In this document: positions 1 through 22,017 of the stretch, piece by piece
How the letters are laid out: each line of letters begins with the position of its first letter
Numbering within the stretch: position 1 is the stretch's first letter
Source: an uncultured bacterium
GTDB taxonomy: Bacteria; Verrucomicrobiota; Kiritimatiellia; CAIKKV01; CAITUY01
Length of the DNA: 64,000 nucleotides
Direction: 5' to 3'
Assembly: GCA_903908715.1 (NCBI GenBank)
Contig: CAIVSY010000106.1
Location: forward strand, 1-64,000
The notes under the pieces: generated by a model
Told to the model about the DNA's origin: nothing
Databases searched by the model: none
What the model saw: only the letters and a program-made list of their open reading frames with translations
Program-made: the position numbers and the translations under genes

Positions 1-124
1 AGCGCCGGCGGCGTGTATCGCACCGGCGGCACGATGACTAACTGCGTTGTCTACGGGAACCAGTCCGGTTACGCCAACTACAGCGGCGCTGCGTCGGCCG
101 CGACGTACTCCTGCGCGCCGGAAT
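1..124 (+). repeat. 124-bp exact duplicate of 4173-4296
   Basis: Bases 1-124 match 4173-4296 without a mismatch; the match ends exactly where the stop codon TAG begins at 124. After an unmatched stretch of about 11 bases, sequence from 136 follows a different part of the paralogue (5502 onwards) with scattered mismatches. The perfect identity contrasts with the divergence elsewhere between the paralogues. It therefore suggests recent gene conversion, or an assembly join at a contig end where a k-mer-length repeat branches. Confidence 0.85.
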
Positions 125-702
125 AGATACTTCAATGCACGATCGCGAGCAATAGCAACTCGTCGGCGACGGTGGGAGCCGGGGTTCATCGTAGCGGGGG
201 TACGCTCACAAATTGCATCGTGTACGGCAATTCTGGCCCCAGTGGCCTGAACTTCAGTGGAACCGCCACTTCTGCCGCCTACTCCTGTGCTCCCGAGTTG
301 ACCCACGGTTCGCAGGGGAATACCACCAACAATCCGCTGTTCATCAGCCTGGCGACGGGCAACTGCCAACTGGGCACCGGGTCGCCGTGCATCGACACCG
401 GCACGAACTTGGTGAGTGTCACCAACGACCTGCTCCGCGCCGTTCGGCCGCAGAACGGGGACAGTATCGGCGAAACGAATGTCGACATGGGTTGCTACGA
501 AATGCGCGATCCGGGAGCCGGGGCGTTCACCGTCAGTTTCACCGGCACTCCAACCTACGGGTTCACTCCCATGCAGGTCGTATTCACCGCCACGCTCATG
601 GGTGCGGACACGAACGTCACGTGGTGGGGCTGGGACTTCGACAATAACGGCACGTGGGACCAGGCCGGCTCCGGCCTCCGGGTGGTCACCAACACATACT
701 AG
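1..702 (+). pseudogene. beta-helix/PKD secreted protein, broken 5' part
   Basis: This is the left-truncated front of a large secreted protein with right-handed beta-helix coils, a choice-of-anchor Q motif (DMGCYE near 484-501) and a PKD domain. Reading frame 1 is open apart from TAG at 124-126 and TAG at 700-702, and the same frame continues through 3300. The second stop falls inside the PKD strand motif, between VTNTY and TPGTYTV; paralogous sites have Ser or Phe there, so TCG to TAG is the simplest explanation. The first stop sits at the chimeric junction. An ATG at 172 lacks a convincing ribosome binding site. Recent inactivation and sequencing or assembly error are both possible. TAG is an ordinary stop elsewhere in the window, so readthrough is unlikely. 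Confidence 0.6.
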
Positions 703-720
703 ACCCCGGGCACTTATACG

Positions 721-3300
721 GTGATGATGCGCGCCACCAACAGCAGCGAGACCGCAGAGTCGAGCACCAACGTCAACTATCTCACGGCTGTGAACCAATA
801 CGTTTACGTGTCGCCAGGCGGTTCGCACTTCTCGCCGTTTACCAACTGGGTGACGGCTGCCACCAACATCAATGACGCCGTGGCGATCGCGACGAACGGC
901 CAGACGGTGCTGGTCACGAACGGGGCGTATGCGGTGACCACGAACCTTGCTGTTGGAGCCTTCTCGGTGAAGAGTGTCAATGGCCCTGCCGTGACCACCG
1001 TGTACCGACAGCAGGTGACGGCGACACAGTTCGCGATCTTCAATCTGGCGGACAATAATGCGTTCGTCAGCGGGTTCACGATCACCAACGGGCAGTGGAC
1101 GGCCGGCGGCGTGGGCGGCGCCGTCCACATGACGGCCGGCACGGTAAGCAACTGTGTGATGACACGTTGTATCAATCTCAATGGCACTCCCAATGACAAC
1201 GGTGTCATTTACATGAACGGCGGGTTGATGACGGGGTGCGTTATCTCGAACAATGCACCCCGATCGTGGGGCATAAAGGTGGCGGGCGGTACACTGGAGA
1301 ACAGCATCATTACCCTGTTTTCTTCGGGCAACGACGATGCGTCGCTGGTACTCAGCGGGGGCACGGCCCGTCGCTGTAAGGTCGTGTCCAACGCCCCGTG
1401 GGGCAACCATCCTGCCGTCAATATCGCTGCCGCTACTGCCCGTCTGGAGAACTGTCTGGTCTGGGGAAACACCGGCAGCGCCTACGGTGGTGTTCGCCTC
1501 CAGAACGGCACGATGGTGAATTGTACTGTGGCGAGCAACATGATCGTTGCGGGCGCCTCGGCCGGCGGCGTTACCCGGACCGGCGGCACGATGACCAACT
1601 GCATTGTCTACGGAAACCAATCGGGCTACGCGAACTACAGCGGCTCCGCATCAGCCGCCGCCTATTCCTGCGCGCCGGAACTGACACTGGGAGATCAGGG
1701 GAATATCAATACGGATCCAAAGTTCCGTAACGTAGCTGCTGGAGACTGCCATTTGCAGGGGTCATCCCCCTGTTTTAATGCCGGAACGAATCTGGCATCG
1801 ATCACGGTCGATCTGGACGGCACAAGCCGCGATGCGTCGTGCGACATGGGCGCATACGAATATGACTCAACGACCGGTCCAATGGAAATCGGTTTCTCCG
1901 GAATTCCGTTGTCGGGCATTGGGTCCGTGACAAGCGTATTCACGGCTGTCGCCGTGGGATCCAATACGACGATCACCTGGTATGGATGGGACTTCGATAA
2001 CGACGGAACATTCAACCTTGCCGGCGCCGATCTCCGGGTTGTAACAAATGTCTATTCACCCGGCCGATACACGGTTTCGTTGTTGGCCAGCAACGCCGTG
2101 TCCGAGTCATCCTGGTTGACGAATGTGAATTATGTCTCGGTTCAGTCCGCTGGCACCGACGTCTATGTATCCACCAACGGCTCGAATACCTTCCCCTTCG
2201 AAACCTGGGCAAAGGCCACAACCAACCTGAATGACGCCGTTGCCAATGCCGCTCGCGGCGGAAGCACAGTCTGGGTCAGCAACGGTGCCTACAAGGTGAC
2301 GGGCGGGCTGACCCTGTCGACCAATATCACCGTGCGGAGCGTCAACGGTCCGTCTGTGACATTGATTTCCCGTGAGTCGGCGGCCGGCACAGGCTTCCCG
2401 ATCTTCTACCTGTCGCAGTCCGGAGCGCTGGTGGCGGGTGTGACGCTATCCAACGGATGCTGGGGGGTTTCGTCCGGCGCGGGCGGTGCGGTAACCATGA
2501 CCGCGGGATTAGTGACCAACTGCGTGATGGTGGGAACGGTGGCGGATTCCTACAACAACGGCGTGCTGGGGTTGTGGGGCGGAACAGTGGCCGGTTGCGT
2601 GATCTCGAACAACACGCCGCGGTCGTTCACGGTATATGTGACGGCGGGTGTGATGGAGGATACGATTATCACAGGAACGACGGCAGGCCATGACGCGGCG
2701 CCGCTGGTCATGGGCTACGGCCCGAGCGGCGGGACCGTGCGGCGCTGCAAGATTATCAACAACAATCCGCCGGGCAACATCGCCGGCGCGGTGCAGATTC
2801 ACGGGGGTGCCCGTCTGGAGAACTGCCTGATCTGGGGGAACAAAGCCGCGAGCAGTTCGTATGGCGCTGTTCTGATGGGCGGGGGTGGGAATGAGACAAG
2901 GGGCGGGACGATGGTAAACTGCACGATCGCAAGCAACAGCACGGTCAGCGGCGCGTCCGGCGTGACCATGCTGGGCGGCGGCACGATGACCAACTGCATC
3001 GTGTATGGAAACGATCCTGCTTTTGCCAACTACAGCGGATCGGCTTCCGCCGCCGCCTTCTCCTGCGCACCGGAACTGACGCATGGCAGCCAAGGCAACA
3101 TCACGAATAATCCGTTGTTCGTCGATTTGGCGGCCGGCAATGGCCGCCTGCAGGATGCTTCGCCCTGCATTAACGCGGGCACGAACCTGCCCTCCCTGAT
3201 TGGCACCGTTGATCTCGATGGACTGCGGCGAGTACGGAATGTGGTGGATATGGGTGCGTATGAAAGAGTTCCGCCAGGTTCGGCTTTCCGATTCCGATAA
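721..3300 (+). CDS. beta-helix repeat protein with PKD domain and choice-of-anchor Q motifs (downstream part of a broken gene)
   Basis: About 860 residues continue the frame that stops at 700-702. The order is the end of a PKD domain, a helix module (about 790-1860, ending DMGAYE), a complete PKD domain (about 1880-2145, with the core GWDFDNDGTF), and a second helix module (about 2150-3290, ending DMGAYE). Each helix module opens with a YVS...G strand motif and has rungs of the type GGTMTNCIVYGN. Families of this type are secreted or cell-surface parallel beta-helix proteins, often bound to polysaccharide or acting as lyases; no catalytic residues can be assigned here. There is no signal peptide and no good Shine-Dalgarno at the GTG at 721, so it is probably not translated alone. 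The tail after the Q motif is only a few residues, with no sorting anchor visible. Confidence 0.6.
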   Translation: MMMRATNSSETAESSTNVNYLTAVNQYVYVSPGGSHFSPFTNWVTAATNINDAVAIATNGQTVLVTNGAYAVTTNLAVGAFSVKSVNGPAVTTVYRQQVTATQFAIFNLADNNAFVSGFTITNGQWTAGGVGGAVHMTAGTVSNCVMTRCINLNGTPNDNGVIYMNGGLMTGCVISNNAPRSWGIKVAGGTLENSIITLFSSGNDDASLVLSGGTARRCKVVSNAPWGNHPAVNIAAATARLENCLVWGNTGSAYGGVRLQNGTMVNCTVASNMIVAGASAGGVTRTGGTMTNCIVYGNQSGYANYSGSASAAAYSCAPELTLGDQGNINTDPKFRNVAAGDCHLQGSSPCFNAGTNLASITVDLDGTSRDASCDMGAYEYDSTTGPMEIGFSGIPLSGIGSVTSVFTAVAVGSNTTITWYGWDFDNDGTFNLAGADLRVVTNVYSPGRYTVSLLASNAVSESSWLTNVNYVSVQSAGTDVYVSTNGSNTFPFETWAKATTNLNDAVANAARGGSTVWVSNGAYKVTGGLTLSTNITVRSVNGPSVTLISRESAAGTGFPIFYLSQSGALVAGVTLSNGCWGVSSGAGGAVTMTAGLVTNCVMVGTVADSYNNGVLGLWGGTVAGCVISNNTPRSFTVYVTAGVMEDTIITGTTAGHDAAPLVMGYGPSGGTVRRCKIINNNPPGNIAGAVQIHGGARLENCLIWGNKAASSSYGAVLMGGGGNETRGGTMVNCTIASNSTVSGASGVTMLGGGTMTNCIVYGNDPAFANYSGSASAAAFSCAPELTHGSQGNITNNPLFVDLAAGNGRLQDASPCINAGTNLPSLIGTVDLDGLRRVRNVVDMGAYERVPPGSAFRFR

Positions 3301-3344
3301 GAGCCTTGACCAAATCTCTCGATAAGCGACAGGAGACACAACCA

Positions 3345-5894
3345 ATGAGCCATCTTGGCCTGAGGAACATTGCAATCGGGTATTTGATTGTTTCAACCTT
3401 GTCGGCTGCGTCCCTTTACGGGGCGACGATCTATGTATCGCCCTCCGGCACGAATGATGTGGCAGCCCGTTACAATACCTGGGAAGGCGCCGCGCAAGAC
3501 ATCGGCGCCGCAGTAGCCCTCGCCGTGGCCAACGACGAGGTGGTGGTGACCAACGGTGCCTACCCCGTCAGCACAAATCTCTATGTGACCAACTTCACGG
3601 TCCGCAGCGTCAACGGCCCTGACGTGACCACGGTGTACCGAACATCCGGCGACTATCCAGTCTTCCGATTGGCGCATTCCAATGCCTGGATGTCAGGCTT
3701 TACGGTCACGAACGCCAGCTACACGCAGGGCGGCGGAGCCATACACATGACTGCCGGCACGGTAAGCAACTGCGTCATGACCAGGAACTTCCTCCGGGCC
3801 GGCAACGGGAACGGCACCGCATGGATGTCCGGCGGCCTGATGACGGGGTGTATCTTCTCGAACAACACACCGCGATCCTGGGGTGTGACGGTAGCGGGTG
3901 GAACACTGGAGAACAGCGTACTCACCCTGTTCACACAGCATAACGACGATGCCCCTTTAGTACTCAGCGCCGGCACTGTGCGACGCTGCCGTATTGTTGC
4001 CAACTCCCCCAGCGTGAATACCAGGCCGAACGGCGTGAACTTGTCCGGAAGCGGGCGGTTGGAGAACTGTCTTGTCTGGGGTAATAGCGGGGGCATCTAT
4101 GGCGGAGTCTGGATGTCGGGCGGCACAATGGTGAATTGCACGGTGGCCAGCAACAGCGTGTCTGCAGGGTCGAGCGCCGGCGGCGTGTATCGCACCGGCG
4201 GCACGATGACTAACTGCGTTGTCTACGGGAACCAGTCCGGTTACGCCAACTACAGCGGCGCTGCGTCGGCCGCGACGTACTCCTGCGCGCCGGAATTGAC
4301 CTTGGGTGCTCAGGGGAATGTCACCGATAACCCGCGCTTCGTGAATCTCGCCGCAGGCGATTGCCGTCTGTCGTTCGGTTCTTCCGCCGTGAATTCCGGC
4401 ACGAACACGGGCCTCACTGTGGATCTGGAAGGAACCAACCGTGACACGCAGTATGACATGGGCGCCTACGAGAGGGTGCCGGCCGGCGGAGCGTTGGCCG
4501 TGGCTTTCAGCGGATTGCCTCAAACCGGAATCGGCTCAGTCACCAGCGTATTTACTGCCGTCCTGGAAGGCTCTAATACAAATGTCACATCATGGGGTTG
4601 GGACTTTAACAATGACGGCGGTTTTGAAGCAACCGGATCGGGCTTGCAGACAGTCACGAACATTTTCTTCGAGGGAAGGCATTCGATATCCGTTTGGGTC
4701 GCAAACGGAGTACCGGAGGAGGCGGCTTGGACGAACCTGGATTATGTAACCGTGCAATCAACTGGCACGTATGTCTTCGTCGCCACCAACGGCTCCAACA
4801 CTTTCCCGTATGACACCTGGTCCAAGGCTGCCACGAATCTTGCGGAAGCCTGCGCCAGTGCGGCGTACGGCGGCATGACTGTCTGGGTCAGCAATGGTGT
4901 ATACGATGTTACGGCTGGAATCAACCTGAGTACAAACATAACCGTGCGCAGCCTGAACGGTCCGAATGTGACGACTGTATATCGGCCGGATTCTGCCGGC
5001 ACAGGATTTGCGATCTTCAACCTGAGCCACTCGAACGCATGGGTGTCCGGATTCATCATCACCAACGGTTTCTGGTCGGCGAACAACGACTGCGGCGGTT
5101 CGATCCATATGACCGCTGGTACGGTCACCAATTGCTGGATCATCAATACACGATTCATCGGAGGGACCCAGAGCGGCGCAGTCTACATGAACGGCGGGTT
5201 GATGACCGCATGTTTGATCTCCAACAGTGTTCCGCGTTCATTTGCGTTAAAGCTGGCTGGAGGCACGATAGAGGACTCTATCCTTACCCGGAACACGGAT
5301 CCGTATGATGAGAGCCCTGTGCGCGTGTTTGGAGGAACCATGCGTCGCTGTAAAGTACTCTATAACCGATCCCAAGGCGGCACCGCCGTAGGCCCTGTGT
5401 GGCTAAGCAGTGGCCTGCTGGAAAACTGCCTGATCTATGGCAATGTCAGCTTGAATAACGGCGCAGGCGGAGTCGGTCAGGGCGGCGGGCGGATGGTTAA
5501 CTGCACGATCGCGAGCAATAGCAACTCGTCGGCAACGGTGGGAGCCGGGGTCCATCGTAGCGGGGGTACGCTCACAAATTGCATCGTATACGGCAATTCC
5601 GGCCCGAGTGGCTTGAACTTCAGTGGCGCTGCCACATCCACCGCCTACTCCTGTGCGCCGGAACTGACCAACAGCGTCCAGGGGAATATCACCAACAACC
5701 CGCAGTTCATCAGCCTGACGACGGGCGATTGCCATCTGCAAAAAACGTCGCCGTGCCTTAACAAGGGTTACACGGATACCGCCATGCGCTCGACCATCGA
5801 CCTCGATGGAACTCCCAGAGTCAGGCAAGGGAATACCGATATGGGCTGTTATGAGACCGCCCCCTCAGCTGGCACCTTGCTGTTGCTGCAATAG
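3345..5894 (+). CDS. secreted beta-helix/PKD protein with two choice-of-anchor Q modules
   Basis: The 849-residue product begins with a signal peptide (hydrophobic residues about 9-26, likely cleavage after SLYGA). Then come a helix module (to about 4473, ending DMGAYE), a PKD domain (about 4490-4760, GWDFNNDGGF) and a second helix module ending DMGCYE near 5850. ATG 3345 is chosen over the upstream in-frame codon at 3306 because AGGAGA lies at a good distance before it and the signal peptide starts here. It is a close modular paralogue of the gene ending 44 bp upstream, with near-identical coils. The protein is inferred to be exported and to contact extracellular polysaccharide; its catalytic status is unknown. 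It ends in a short Leu-rich tail, not a recognisable anchor. Confidence 0.8.
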   Translation: MSHLGLRNIAIGYLIVSTLSAASLYGATIYVSPSGTNDVAARYNTWEGAAQDIGAAVALAVANDEVVVTNGAYPVSTNLYVTNFTVRSVNGPDVTTVYRTSGDYPVFRLAHSNAWMSGFTVTNASYTQGGGAIHMTAGTVSNCVMTRNFLRAGNGNGTAWMSGGLMTGCIFSNNTPRSWGVTVAGGTLENSVLTLFTQHNDDAPLVLSAGTVRRCRIVANSPSVNTRPNGVNLSGSGRLENCLVWGNSGGIYGGVWMSGGTMVNCTVASNSVSAGSSAGGVYRTGGTMTNCVVYGNQSGYANYSGAASAATYSCAPELTLGAQGNVTDNPRFVNLAAGDCRLSFGSSAVNSGTNTGLTVDLEGTNRDTQYDMGAYERVPAGGALAVAFSGLPQTGIGSVTSVFTAVLEGSNTNVTSWGWDFNNDGGFEATGSGLQTVTNIFFEGRHSISVWVANGVPEEAAWTNLDYVTVQSTGTYVFVATNGSNTFPYDTWSKAATNLAEACASAAYGGMTVWVSNGVYDVTAGINLSTNITVRSLNGPNVTTVYRPDSAGTGFAIFNLSHSNAWVSGFIITNGFWSANNDCGGSIHMTAGTVTNCWIINTRFIGGTQSGAVYMNGGLMTACLISNSVPRSFALKLAGGTIEDSILTRNTDPYDESPVRVFGGTMRRCKVLYNRSQGGTAVGPVWLSSGLLENCLIYGNVSLNNGAGGVGQGGGRMVNCTIASNSNSSATVGAGVHRSGGTLTNCIVYGNSGPSGLNFSGAATSTAYSCAPELTNSVQGNITNNPQFISLTTGDCHLQKTSPCLNKGYTDTAMRSTIDLDGTPRVRQGNTDMGCYETAPSAGTLLLLQ
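4173..4296 (+). repeat. source copy of the 124-bp exact repeat
   Basis: This is identical to bases 1-124. It encodes beta-helix coils ending in the CAPE motif of the first module of the intact paralogue. Confidence 0.85.
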
Positions 5895-19683: not shown

Positions 19684-22017
19684 TCAAAGATCCAGTTGAA
19701 GGGCACGTTCCACAGAAGGGTGCTTCAGTTTCGAGTTCAAGCCAGCCCAGGTGCTTCGCGCATTGGCCGTTCTCATGTCCGGCTCAAATCCGAAACCCAA
19801 GTACAAGGCAATGGCGCCAGTCCGTTCCGTCGTCGTGACAAGGTAACAGTTGTCGTGCCACTCCGCCAGGCAGTTCATGGCGTGTGTCATCATCGCCTTG
19901 CCAACACCCTTGCCCTGGAAGCGCGGGCGTACCGCCACCCAGTGAATCCGGCCAGCATCCCGTCCATGAAAGTCGCGGTTGTACCAGGCGCTGATTGTCC
20001 CCACTCCGAGCCCGCGCGAATCCGTCACGATGAAGCACCGTCGTGGCACGGCACCAGGATCGTCGCCGAACTCTTCGCGGAACAAACCGTCCTTGATCGT
20101 GAGGTACGGTTCGGCGTCGCGCCATATGTCTGTCCAAAGGCCGATATCATCCACTGTCATGGGGCGGATGCCATAGCCCGCCGGCATGGGCATTTGCGGG
20201 ATGCCGCGCATATGCGGCCGGCTCATGATCACTGTCGTTCCAGTTGGCGCCGCCGACAACCGCGGCATGGCTCCTTGCCGGGCCCGGAACATCTTCTGGG
20301 CCGTCCAGTATGGCAACAACCGGCGCCGGTCGCGACTGACAACGCCAAACGGCGCGGTCGCCAGCCCGTTAAAAAAACGACCAGCCGGCCAGGAATGATC
20401 CGCCCAACACCAGATCGTGGCTCCGCAGAGGTACGGGGCATCGAACGTGGCAAACTCCGCCTCGAGGGAGCGCGCGTGTTCGTCTTCGCCAAGCGCATGG
20501 CCGAATGTCCCGGCGAACGAAGCATACCCGAACTCGGCAATCAGAACCGGTTTGGCGGGGTATTGGCTGTGCAACCCGGCGATCCGCTCACGTTGCCAAG
20601 CAACGGATCCTGCCAGATCGAAAGTCCCCGGCTGATGACCGCGTGCCTCGAAGTCCATTACGGGATAGGAGTTGATGCAGACGACGTCATCTTCATCGAA
20701 TTGCGAATGTCCGTCCTCCCAGCGGTTCATCACGTGGACACACAGCCGAGAAGGATCGAGCGCTCGTGCCAGCCGGATCAGCGCCTGATTTCCTTCCGCC
20801 ACGCCAGGCTCTCCTTCGGGCGTTTCGTTGCTCACCGACCAGAAGATGACGGCGGGATGATTGAAGTCGCGCTCAATCATCCGCTCCAACTGCCGGGAGG
20901 CGGAGACCACGCGGGCGGCCTGGGTACGGCGGCCCTCTTCGCCCTGGTTCCAGAAATAGAGCGGAATCTCTGCGAACACCAGTAACCCCAGCCGGTCACA
21001 CAGGTCCAGTTCGGCCGGATGGTGCGGATAATGGCAGAGCCGAACGAAATTGGCGCCGGCCTCTTTTATCCGCTCCAGATCCTGCCTTGTCGTCTCGAGA
21101 TCTGTCGCCATCGCCGTCCGTGGCGAATCCTCATGCCGGTTGAACCCGGTCAGGAAGATTTTTTCGCCGTTGAGCAGAAGCCCCTCCGGAGTCGCCTCGA
21201 TATGCCTGAACCCGAATGTCGTTGCTACCTCATCCATCACCCCGTCCCCAGCCGCAAGGCGGACGCGAGCCTGGTAAAGCACCGGGGCCGACGGCGACCA
21301 GGCGCGGGCGCCCGCAAGCGTACCGTTCAGTTTCACCTCTTCCGCTGAGCCCGCCTCAAGCCTGACGGGAGGCGCCTGCAACCGCAGGCATGGATTCCCG
21401 TCCGCCTCATGGATAGCCACCTCAAGCCCCGTGACGGCCGCCATGATGCCGGTGTTACGGATTCGCGCCTGGACATTCAGCCTGCCGCCCGCCGCTCCCG
21501 GTTTAGCGCTGATCCGCAGCTGATCGACGTACAGCGGTGCGGTCGAATAGAGGAGCACCTCGCGAATGATGCCGCCGTAGCCGCGCCAGCCGACATGCAT
21601 GCCCGGGACATCCCCCTCGTGGTGAGAGTTGTCCACCAGGACAGCCAGCACGTTCCGGCCATCCCAACCTATCTGGTCGCCCACCTCAAATTCAAACGGC
21701 AGAAAACCATCCCGGTGTTCTCCCAGGCACTCCCCGTTCAGCCAAACCTTCGCCCTGTAATTCACGGCCTCAAAGCGCAGGACCACCCGCCGACCGCGCC
21801 ACCCGGCAGGAACAAAGAACGTCCGGCGATACCAAACCAAGCCTTCGTAGTAATCAATGCCCGCACAGCACGCCTCGAAACAGGACGGCACGGCTACCTC
21901 CCGCCACAACGGAAAATCCCGGTCGGCCCGCCAAAAACCCAGCACCTCCCCATCCCCATGCGGGTCAGGGCTACACCGCCACGGGGAAGCAAGTTCCAGC
22001 GTCTGTCGTTCGCTCAT
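19684..22017 (-). CDS. GH2 glycosidase fused to GNAT acetyltransferase
   Basis: A 777-residue fusion. Residues 1-585 form a GH2 enzyme (sugar-binding, immunoglobulin-like and TIM-barrel domains) with acid/base Glu398 in SVSNETPEG and nucleophile Glu495 in LIAEFGYAS. Residues about 598-777 are a complete GNAT domain with the acetyl-CoA loop RPRFQGKGVGKAMM (697-710) and a C-terminal GFGFEP strand. GH2 enzymes are beta-galactosidases, glucuronidases or mannosidases. No signal peptide is present, which fits the need for cytosolic acetyl-CoA. The linker is short and uninterrupted. An internal ATG at 20226 could start the GNAT alone but has no Shine-Dalgarno. GAGGGAG precedes ATG 22017. The acetyl acceptor is unknown; an amino sugar released by this locus is a guess. 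Confidence 0.88.
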   Translation of the reverse strand: MSERQTLELASPWRCSPDPHGDGEVLGFWRADRDFPLWREVAVPSCFEACCAGIDYYEGLVWYRRTFFVPAGWRGRRVVLRFEAVNYRAKVWLNGECLGEHRDGFLPFEFEVGDQIGWDGRNVLAVLVDNSHHEGDVPGMHVGWRGYGGIIREVLLYSTAPLYVDQLRISAKPGAAGGRLNVQARIRNTGIMAAVTGLEVAIHEADGNPCLRLQAPPVRLEAGSAEEVKLNGTLAGARAWSPSAPVLYQARVRLAAGDGVMDEVATTFGFRHIEATPEGLLLNGEKIFLTGFNRHEDSPRTAMATDLETTRQDLERIKEAGANFVRLCHYPHHPAELDLCDRLGLLVFAEIPLYFWNQGEEGRRTQAARVVSASRQLERMIERDFNHPAVIFWSVSNETPEGEPGVAEGNQALIRLARALDPSRLCVHVMNRWEDGHSQFDEDDVVCINSYPVMDFEARGHQPGTFDLAGSVAWQRERIAGLHSQYPAKPVLIAEFGYASFAGTFGHALGEDEHARSLEAEFATFDAPYLCGATIWCWADHSWPAGRFFNGLATAPFGVVSRDRRRLLPYWTAQKMFRARQGAMPRLSAAPTGTTVIMSRPHMRGIPQMPMPAGYGIRPMTVDDIGLWTDIWRDAEPYLTIKDGLFREEFGDDPGAVPRRCFIVTDSRGLGVGTISAWYNRDFHGRDAGRIHWVAVRPRFQGKGVGKAMMTHAMNCLAEWHDNCYLVTTTERTGAIALYLGFGFEPDMRTANARSTWAGLNSKLKHPSVERALQLDL

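Follow-up and report, generated by a model that had tools for sequence, protein, structure and literature searches.

Chimeric start of a tandem beta-helix gene at a metagenome contig end: most likely an assembly seam, with a separate in-frame TAG downstream

The left end of contig C106, which opens inside a gene of tandem modules, combines an exact copy of a distant segment, an abrupt change of sequence at bases 124-136 and two in-frame TAG codons. In the reading that we favour, at a probability of about three in four, the join is an assembly seam at a broken contig end, and the second stop (TAG 700) is an independent lesion or an error. Bases 1 to approximately 135 are most likely such a seam, and bases 1-124 are most likely an assembly tip and not the true upstream sequence. 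The whole stretch of DNA that was analyzed (the window) comprises bases 1-64,000 of C106 (80,925 bases), which belongs to a 118-contig draft genome with a size of 3.05 Mb and a completeness of 91%. Base 1 of the window is base 1 of the contig, so that the join sits on a physical contig end. The features of this region are the following:

1-124, + strand: contig tip, identical to 4173-4296 in the tail of U3 (module of the downstream gene)
124-126, + strand: in-frame TAG on the seam, its first base being the last base of the copy
125-135, + strand: seam, 11 bases of uncertain origin, AT-rich (27% G+C), 6/11 alike to 5491-5501
136-504, + strand: module U0, beta-helix end and choice-of-anchor Q domain (NF041518 at 355-504, 30.2 bits)
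535-774, + strand: PKD of U0 (PF00801, profile positions 3-78 of 80) with one TAG inside
700-702, + strand: in-frame TAG inside the PKD
721-3300, + strand: remainder of gene 1 (U1 and U2), without a stop until a TAA
3345-5894, + strand: gene 2, intact tandem paralogue of 849 aa, modules U3 and U4, ending in TAG
4173-4296, + strand: interior copy identical to the tip (exact repeat)
5502-5756, + strand: stretch of U4 most similar to 136-390 (86% identity)

The upstream gene (gene 1) contains at least three modules, U0 (truncated at the contig end), U1 and U2, the last two of which share 55% identity with U3 and U4 of gene 2. The choice-of-anchor Q domain (NCBIfam NF041518) was matched by all five modules of the window; against a cut-off of 25 bits, scores were 57.7 for gene 2, 63.8 for gene 1 from base 721 and 29.1 for 127-699. 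PKD (PF00801) was matched by U0 and U1, and no match to a Pfam beta-helix domain was found. An AlphaFold2 model of gene 2, built on an alignment of seven sequences, was of moderate quality (mean pLDDT 75.4, pTM 0.49). In Foldseek searches with this model, PL6 alginate lyases came first by E-value (TM-score by target 0.22-0.26), and the pectate lyase 1ru4 and Rhombotarget A were also retrieved (TM-scores by target 0.56 and 0.43-0.46, respectively); all of these we take to be beta-helix proteins, and the gene 2 product is predicted from the model to have a beta-helix fold. Read from the sequence, the N-terminus of gene 2 is hydrophobic, and inspection of gene 1 downstream of TAG 700 by eye, without a prediction tool, revealed no visible signal peptide. 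The modules, which are approximately 460 aa long and arranged in tandem, resemble known choice-of-anchor Q proteins in every case, and differ from them only in module number and in the PKD linkers. The named relatives come from genomes that were recovered from metagenomes and bear labels such as Lentisphaerae and Spartobacteria, including two contigs of Lentisphaerae bacterium RIFOXYC12_FULL_60_16; one of these holds an ORF with three module tails, so a gene of three modules is not unusual.

The same family was seen elsewhere in the genome. The left end of C12 (1-959 of the fetched stretch) starts inside a choice-of-anchor Q protein whose 5' part is missing, and the right end of C73 holds a weaker relative (23.9 bits, below the cut-off), so that the family is probably represented there as well. 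A 540-aa frame lies open opposite the beta-helix gene (1-1620, - strand) and is probably a shadow of G+C-rich codon use. Further into the window, a single ORF (19684-22017, - strand) carries glycoside hydrolase family 2 domains together with a C-terminal GNAT acetyltransferase domain, a pairing that struck us as unusual.

The identity originally claimed between 1-124 and 4173-4296 is base-for-base, with the first mismatch at 125. The second-longest exact direct repeat in the window measures 35 bases (187/5553), which makes the 124-base copy an outlier even among the repeats of this beta-helix family. Over the equivalent part of the next module (1558-1681), 100 of 124 positions agree with the copy, and at that level of identity a run of 124 matches has a chance of about 2e-12; an exact copy of this length is therefore unexpected between these paralogues. 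The 24-mer across the junction had no match in the genome-contig collection that was searched, from which records of this genome may be left out, and the closest of the 38 other genomes searched were relatives at the level of the family (same family). An RNA structure at the seam was ruled out, as 177 of 200 shuffled sequences folded at least as well.

Exact copies at contig ends were then counted across the genome, using the left ends of the 118 contigs (minus 38 masked ones, all shorter than 3,000 bases and read as N) and 61 right ends, those of 19 unmasked contigs being left out, which gave 141 usable ends. Copies were sought in contig starts (400 or up to 3,000 bases), contig ends (1,000 bases) and all of C106, so the resulting counts are lower bounds. 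At least 46 of the 141 ends had an exact copy of 25 bases or more elsewhere in the fetched stretches; 22 copies were of exactly 141 bases and four of exactly 119, and none exceeded 300 bases. The match reached the end of the other stretch in 22 cases, began at its first base in six, and lay inside it in 18. Among these interior matches, 11 continued as near-identical or paralogous sequence, one was intermediate (28/60) and six broke off abruptly, with 9-21 of the next 60 bases alike:

C18, left end: abrupt tip of 98 bases
C46, left end: abrupt tip of 121 bases
C55, left end: abrupt tip of 119 bases
C63, left end: abrupt tip of 139 bases
C78, right end: abrupt tip of 112 bases
C106, left end (window start): abrupt tip of 124 bases

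The tip of the window thus has counterparts of its class at other contig ends of the genome. At the right end of C78 (840-1000 of the fetched stretch) the exact 112-base copy, shared with C99:513-624, extends as far as the anticodon loop of a tRNA-Lys gene, beyond which C99 continues with unrelated sequence; this match represents either another chimeric tip or an integration site.

According to Chen and Banfield (2024, PMC10914622), contigs from MEGAHIT and metaSPAdes that end at repeats carry terminal sequences as long as the largest k; the MEGAHIT k-list given there ends in 99, 119 and 141. Because the end overlaps of 141 and 119 bases are values of that list, we infer that the genome is a MEGAHIT assembly. 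Like the end overlaps and local assembly errors of MEGAHIT as described in that paper and by Chen et al. (2020, PMC7111523), C106 stops inside a repeat and has a non-unique end; it differs from them in that the 124 bases at its end recur within C106 itself and are followed by an abrupt switch. The join is thus on a contig end, in an assembly with end overlaps of k-list values, and its own overlap falls between 119 and 141. A clean largest-k overlap was ruled out on this ground as the whole explanation, and the end of C106 is better described as a chimeric-looking tip.

The seam itself was less clear-cut than had been stated. The original prediction placed about 11 unmatched bases at 125-135, but these are not clearly unmatched: six of the 11 agree in register with U4 (5491-5501), a score reached by 2.2% of the 11-mers in 703-5894, so the switch may lie anywhere in 125-135. 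The predicted paralogy to 5502 onwards held up (136-390 is 86% identical to 5502-5756), as did the continuity of the reading frame over the join: both TAG 124-126 and TAG 700-702 are in frame 1, and apart from TAG 700 no stop interrupts that frame between 127 and the TAA at 3298-3300.

What was not kept across the join is the register of the modules. In the window, tail motifs (YSCAPE or similar) of successive modules are spaced by 456, 461 and 465 aa, whereas the two tail motifs at the tip are 58 aa apart. Among relatives, 12 successive pairs of tails (in 15 ORFs with long tail-profile matches, counting those that covered at least 51 profile positions) were 325-705 aa apart. As the tip holds only 41 aa of tail, a looser count was made that accepted any match covering the end of the profile, and it gave 10 relative pairs at 332-896 aa. 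Short partial matches to the tail profile were found many times at spacings of 13-124 aa, without the tail end; these are single turns of the beta-helix. In register, the tip matches the parts upstream of the tail in U1-U4 at 31-42 of 124 positions. Homologous exchange between modules would preserve register, and the join does not (58 aa, vs. 325-705 aa in the 12 pairs). We read TAG 124 as a by-product of the seam.

Of the two explanations offered by the original prediction, a misassembled contig end is therefore the one supported, by the position on a contig end, the overlaps of k-value length and the five similar tips; recombination that inactivates and diversifies a surface protein is not supported for the join, which is out of register and has a stop on the seam. 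In the sequence of events that we propose, the left end would be a broken contig end in a tandem, modular, presumably secreted beta-helix/PKD gene, on a contig probably made by MEGAHIT. The assembler would have lost the leftward path inside the repeat family, and the contig would have ended in a short tip in which 124 bases of U3 (4173-4296) replace the true sequence upstream of U0, with the switch somewhere in 125-135 giving rise to TAG 124. Such a dead-end tip may have grown between the rounds of k=119 and k=141, or by local assembly, and may derive from chimeric reads or from local assembly rather than from an event in the cell. The presence of the choice-of-anchor Q family at another contig end (C12, left) also counts in favour of an artefact.

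Several observations count against it. A textbook branch overlap would measure 119 or 141 bases, not 124. In de Bruijn assembly a junction must be present in reads or in local contigs, so that some DNA molecule, whether real, strain-specific or chimeric, probably carried this one. The frame is kept through the seam, which has a chance of one in three; the resemblance of 125-135 to U4 in register is slightly above chance, and a real fusion could also produce it. Moreover, 11 of the 18 matches inside another stretch continue without an abrupt break and look like strain variants or true paralogues, and some of the other abrupt tips, one of which involves the tRNA-Lys gene, could be real repeats. 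A contig-end artefact nevertheless explains the join with fewer assumptions than recombination.

An older exchange can be recognized next to the seam. The closeness of U0 to U4 is lost after base 390, and in their shared tail dN is 0.12 and dS 0.41, while for the other module pairs dS is 1.4 or more, or saturated. Gene conversion occurs between tandem modules of surface proteins, and the pair 136-390 and 5502-5756, in register and far closer than any other, would by these substitution values indicate the trace of an older in-register exchange of that kind. It is a different event from the join at 124-136, which is out of register and has an exact copy on one side.

This older exchange, the frame kept across the join, and two stops in one gene, which fit a decaying copy, would agree with a real join, in which a deletion or unequal exchange fused two module tails, one of them recently made identical to U3, and left the upstream gene a pseudogene with TAG 700 as a second lesion. 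We consider this unlikely. The out-of-register order occurs in none of the 12 pairs from relatives and in none of the 10 by the looser count; 127-3297 contains no stop or frameshift other than TAG 700, although more would be expected in a gene undergoing decay; the join sits on a contig end, and five other ends are alike. In addition, the assembly runs through 4173-4296 without a break, as would be expected if the tract in common measured less than 141 bases. The U0/U4 exchange, the kept frame and the 11 non-abrupt matches are the reasons why a real fusion at the join still retains a minor share of the probability. In its more specific form, where a very recent out-of-register fusion of modules and a nonsense codon mean that reshuffling silences the upstream copy and leaves the downstream one intact, it is likewise doubtful.

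A tip that came from a minor strain, or from a related organism of the community with a different locus, and was attached by the assembler would be in line with the several contig ends that show only one or two mismatches to another contig over 60 bases, which looks like strain variation, but 124 of 124 identical bases would demand a strain identical to U3 of this genome in that tract and yet rearranged immediately beside it, and we regard this origin as improbable. A diversity-generating retroelement was rejected, since the copies are identical and the genome has a single match to a reverse transcriptase (RVT_1), away from C106. That match (C70:1449-2072) lies on a contig of 3.6 kb and is unlinked to the beta-helix genes.

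Under the favoured reading, an assembly seam, TAG 700 is a separate matter. It lies 576 bases to the right of TAG 124, in sequence that has diverged from the other modules and is for that reason not open to confusion between copies. Its predicted location inside a PKD was borne out: read across the stop, PF00801 scores 39.4 bits, the best of the three PKD matches in the genome, and the PKD around the stop is otherwise intact. The proposal that the original codon was TCG could not be confirmed, as U1 and U3, the other window modules with a PKD part, have a gap at this position. Several sense codons lie one change from TAG, and PKD-like motifs in related ORFs have S, P, T, G, V, A, N or E there (17 cases found with a simple pattern, nine of them from a single Methanosarcina genome). 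TAG 700 is separate from the seam and an independent lesion in an otherwise intact module. Given the PKD score across the stop and the low dN relative to dS in the tail shared with U4, U0 would seem to have been under selection until recently. The stop may have arisen by nonsense mutation, probably of recent date, or be a variant of some strains, and in either case it would cut the upstream gene; or it may be an error of the consensus.

Homology continues past TAG 700 without a change of frame, as would also be expected if TAG were read as an amino acid in gene 1, by recoding or suppression. This organism, however, uses TAG as a normal stop. It has RF1 (472.8 bits), no match to PylS was found in the genome, and TAG ends five of 22 window ORFs (a hand-picked set), including the paralogous gene 2 and one with domains of the threonyl-tRNA-synthetase type. 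Recoding was ruled out on these three grounds; among the matches listed, with at least 26 other genomes matched, none outside C106 has an internal stop, and a reading of TAG as sense in gene 1 alone is extremely improbable as well.

The odd start of this gene is thus most likely ordinary, and not a new way of changing proteins. It calls for caution where a metagenome contig ends in a repetitive surface-protein gene and biological meaning is sought in its opening 200 bases or so, and the lengths of the exact overlaps among the contig ends of one genome, which can point to the assembler from sequence alone, are cheap to repeat elsewhere. If the join were real, it would add one more case of the reshuffling of modular surface proteins, a known kind of event.
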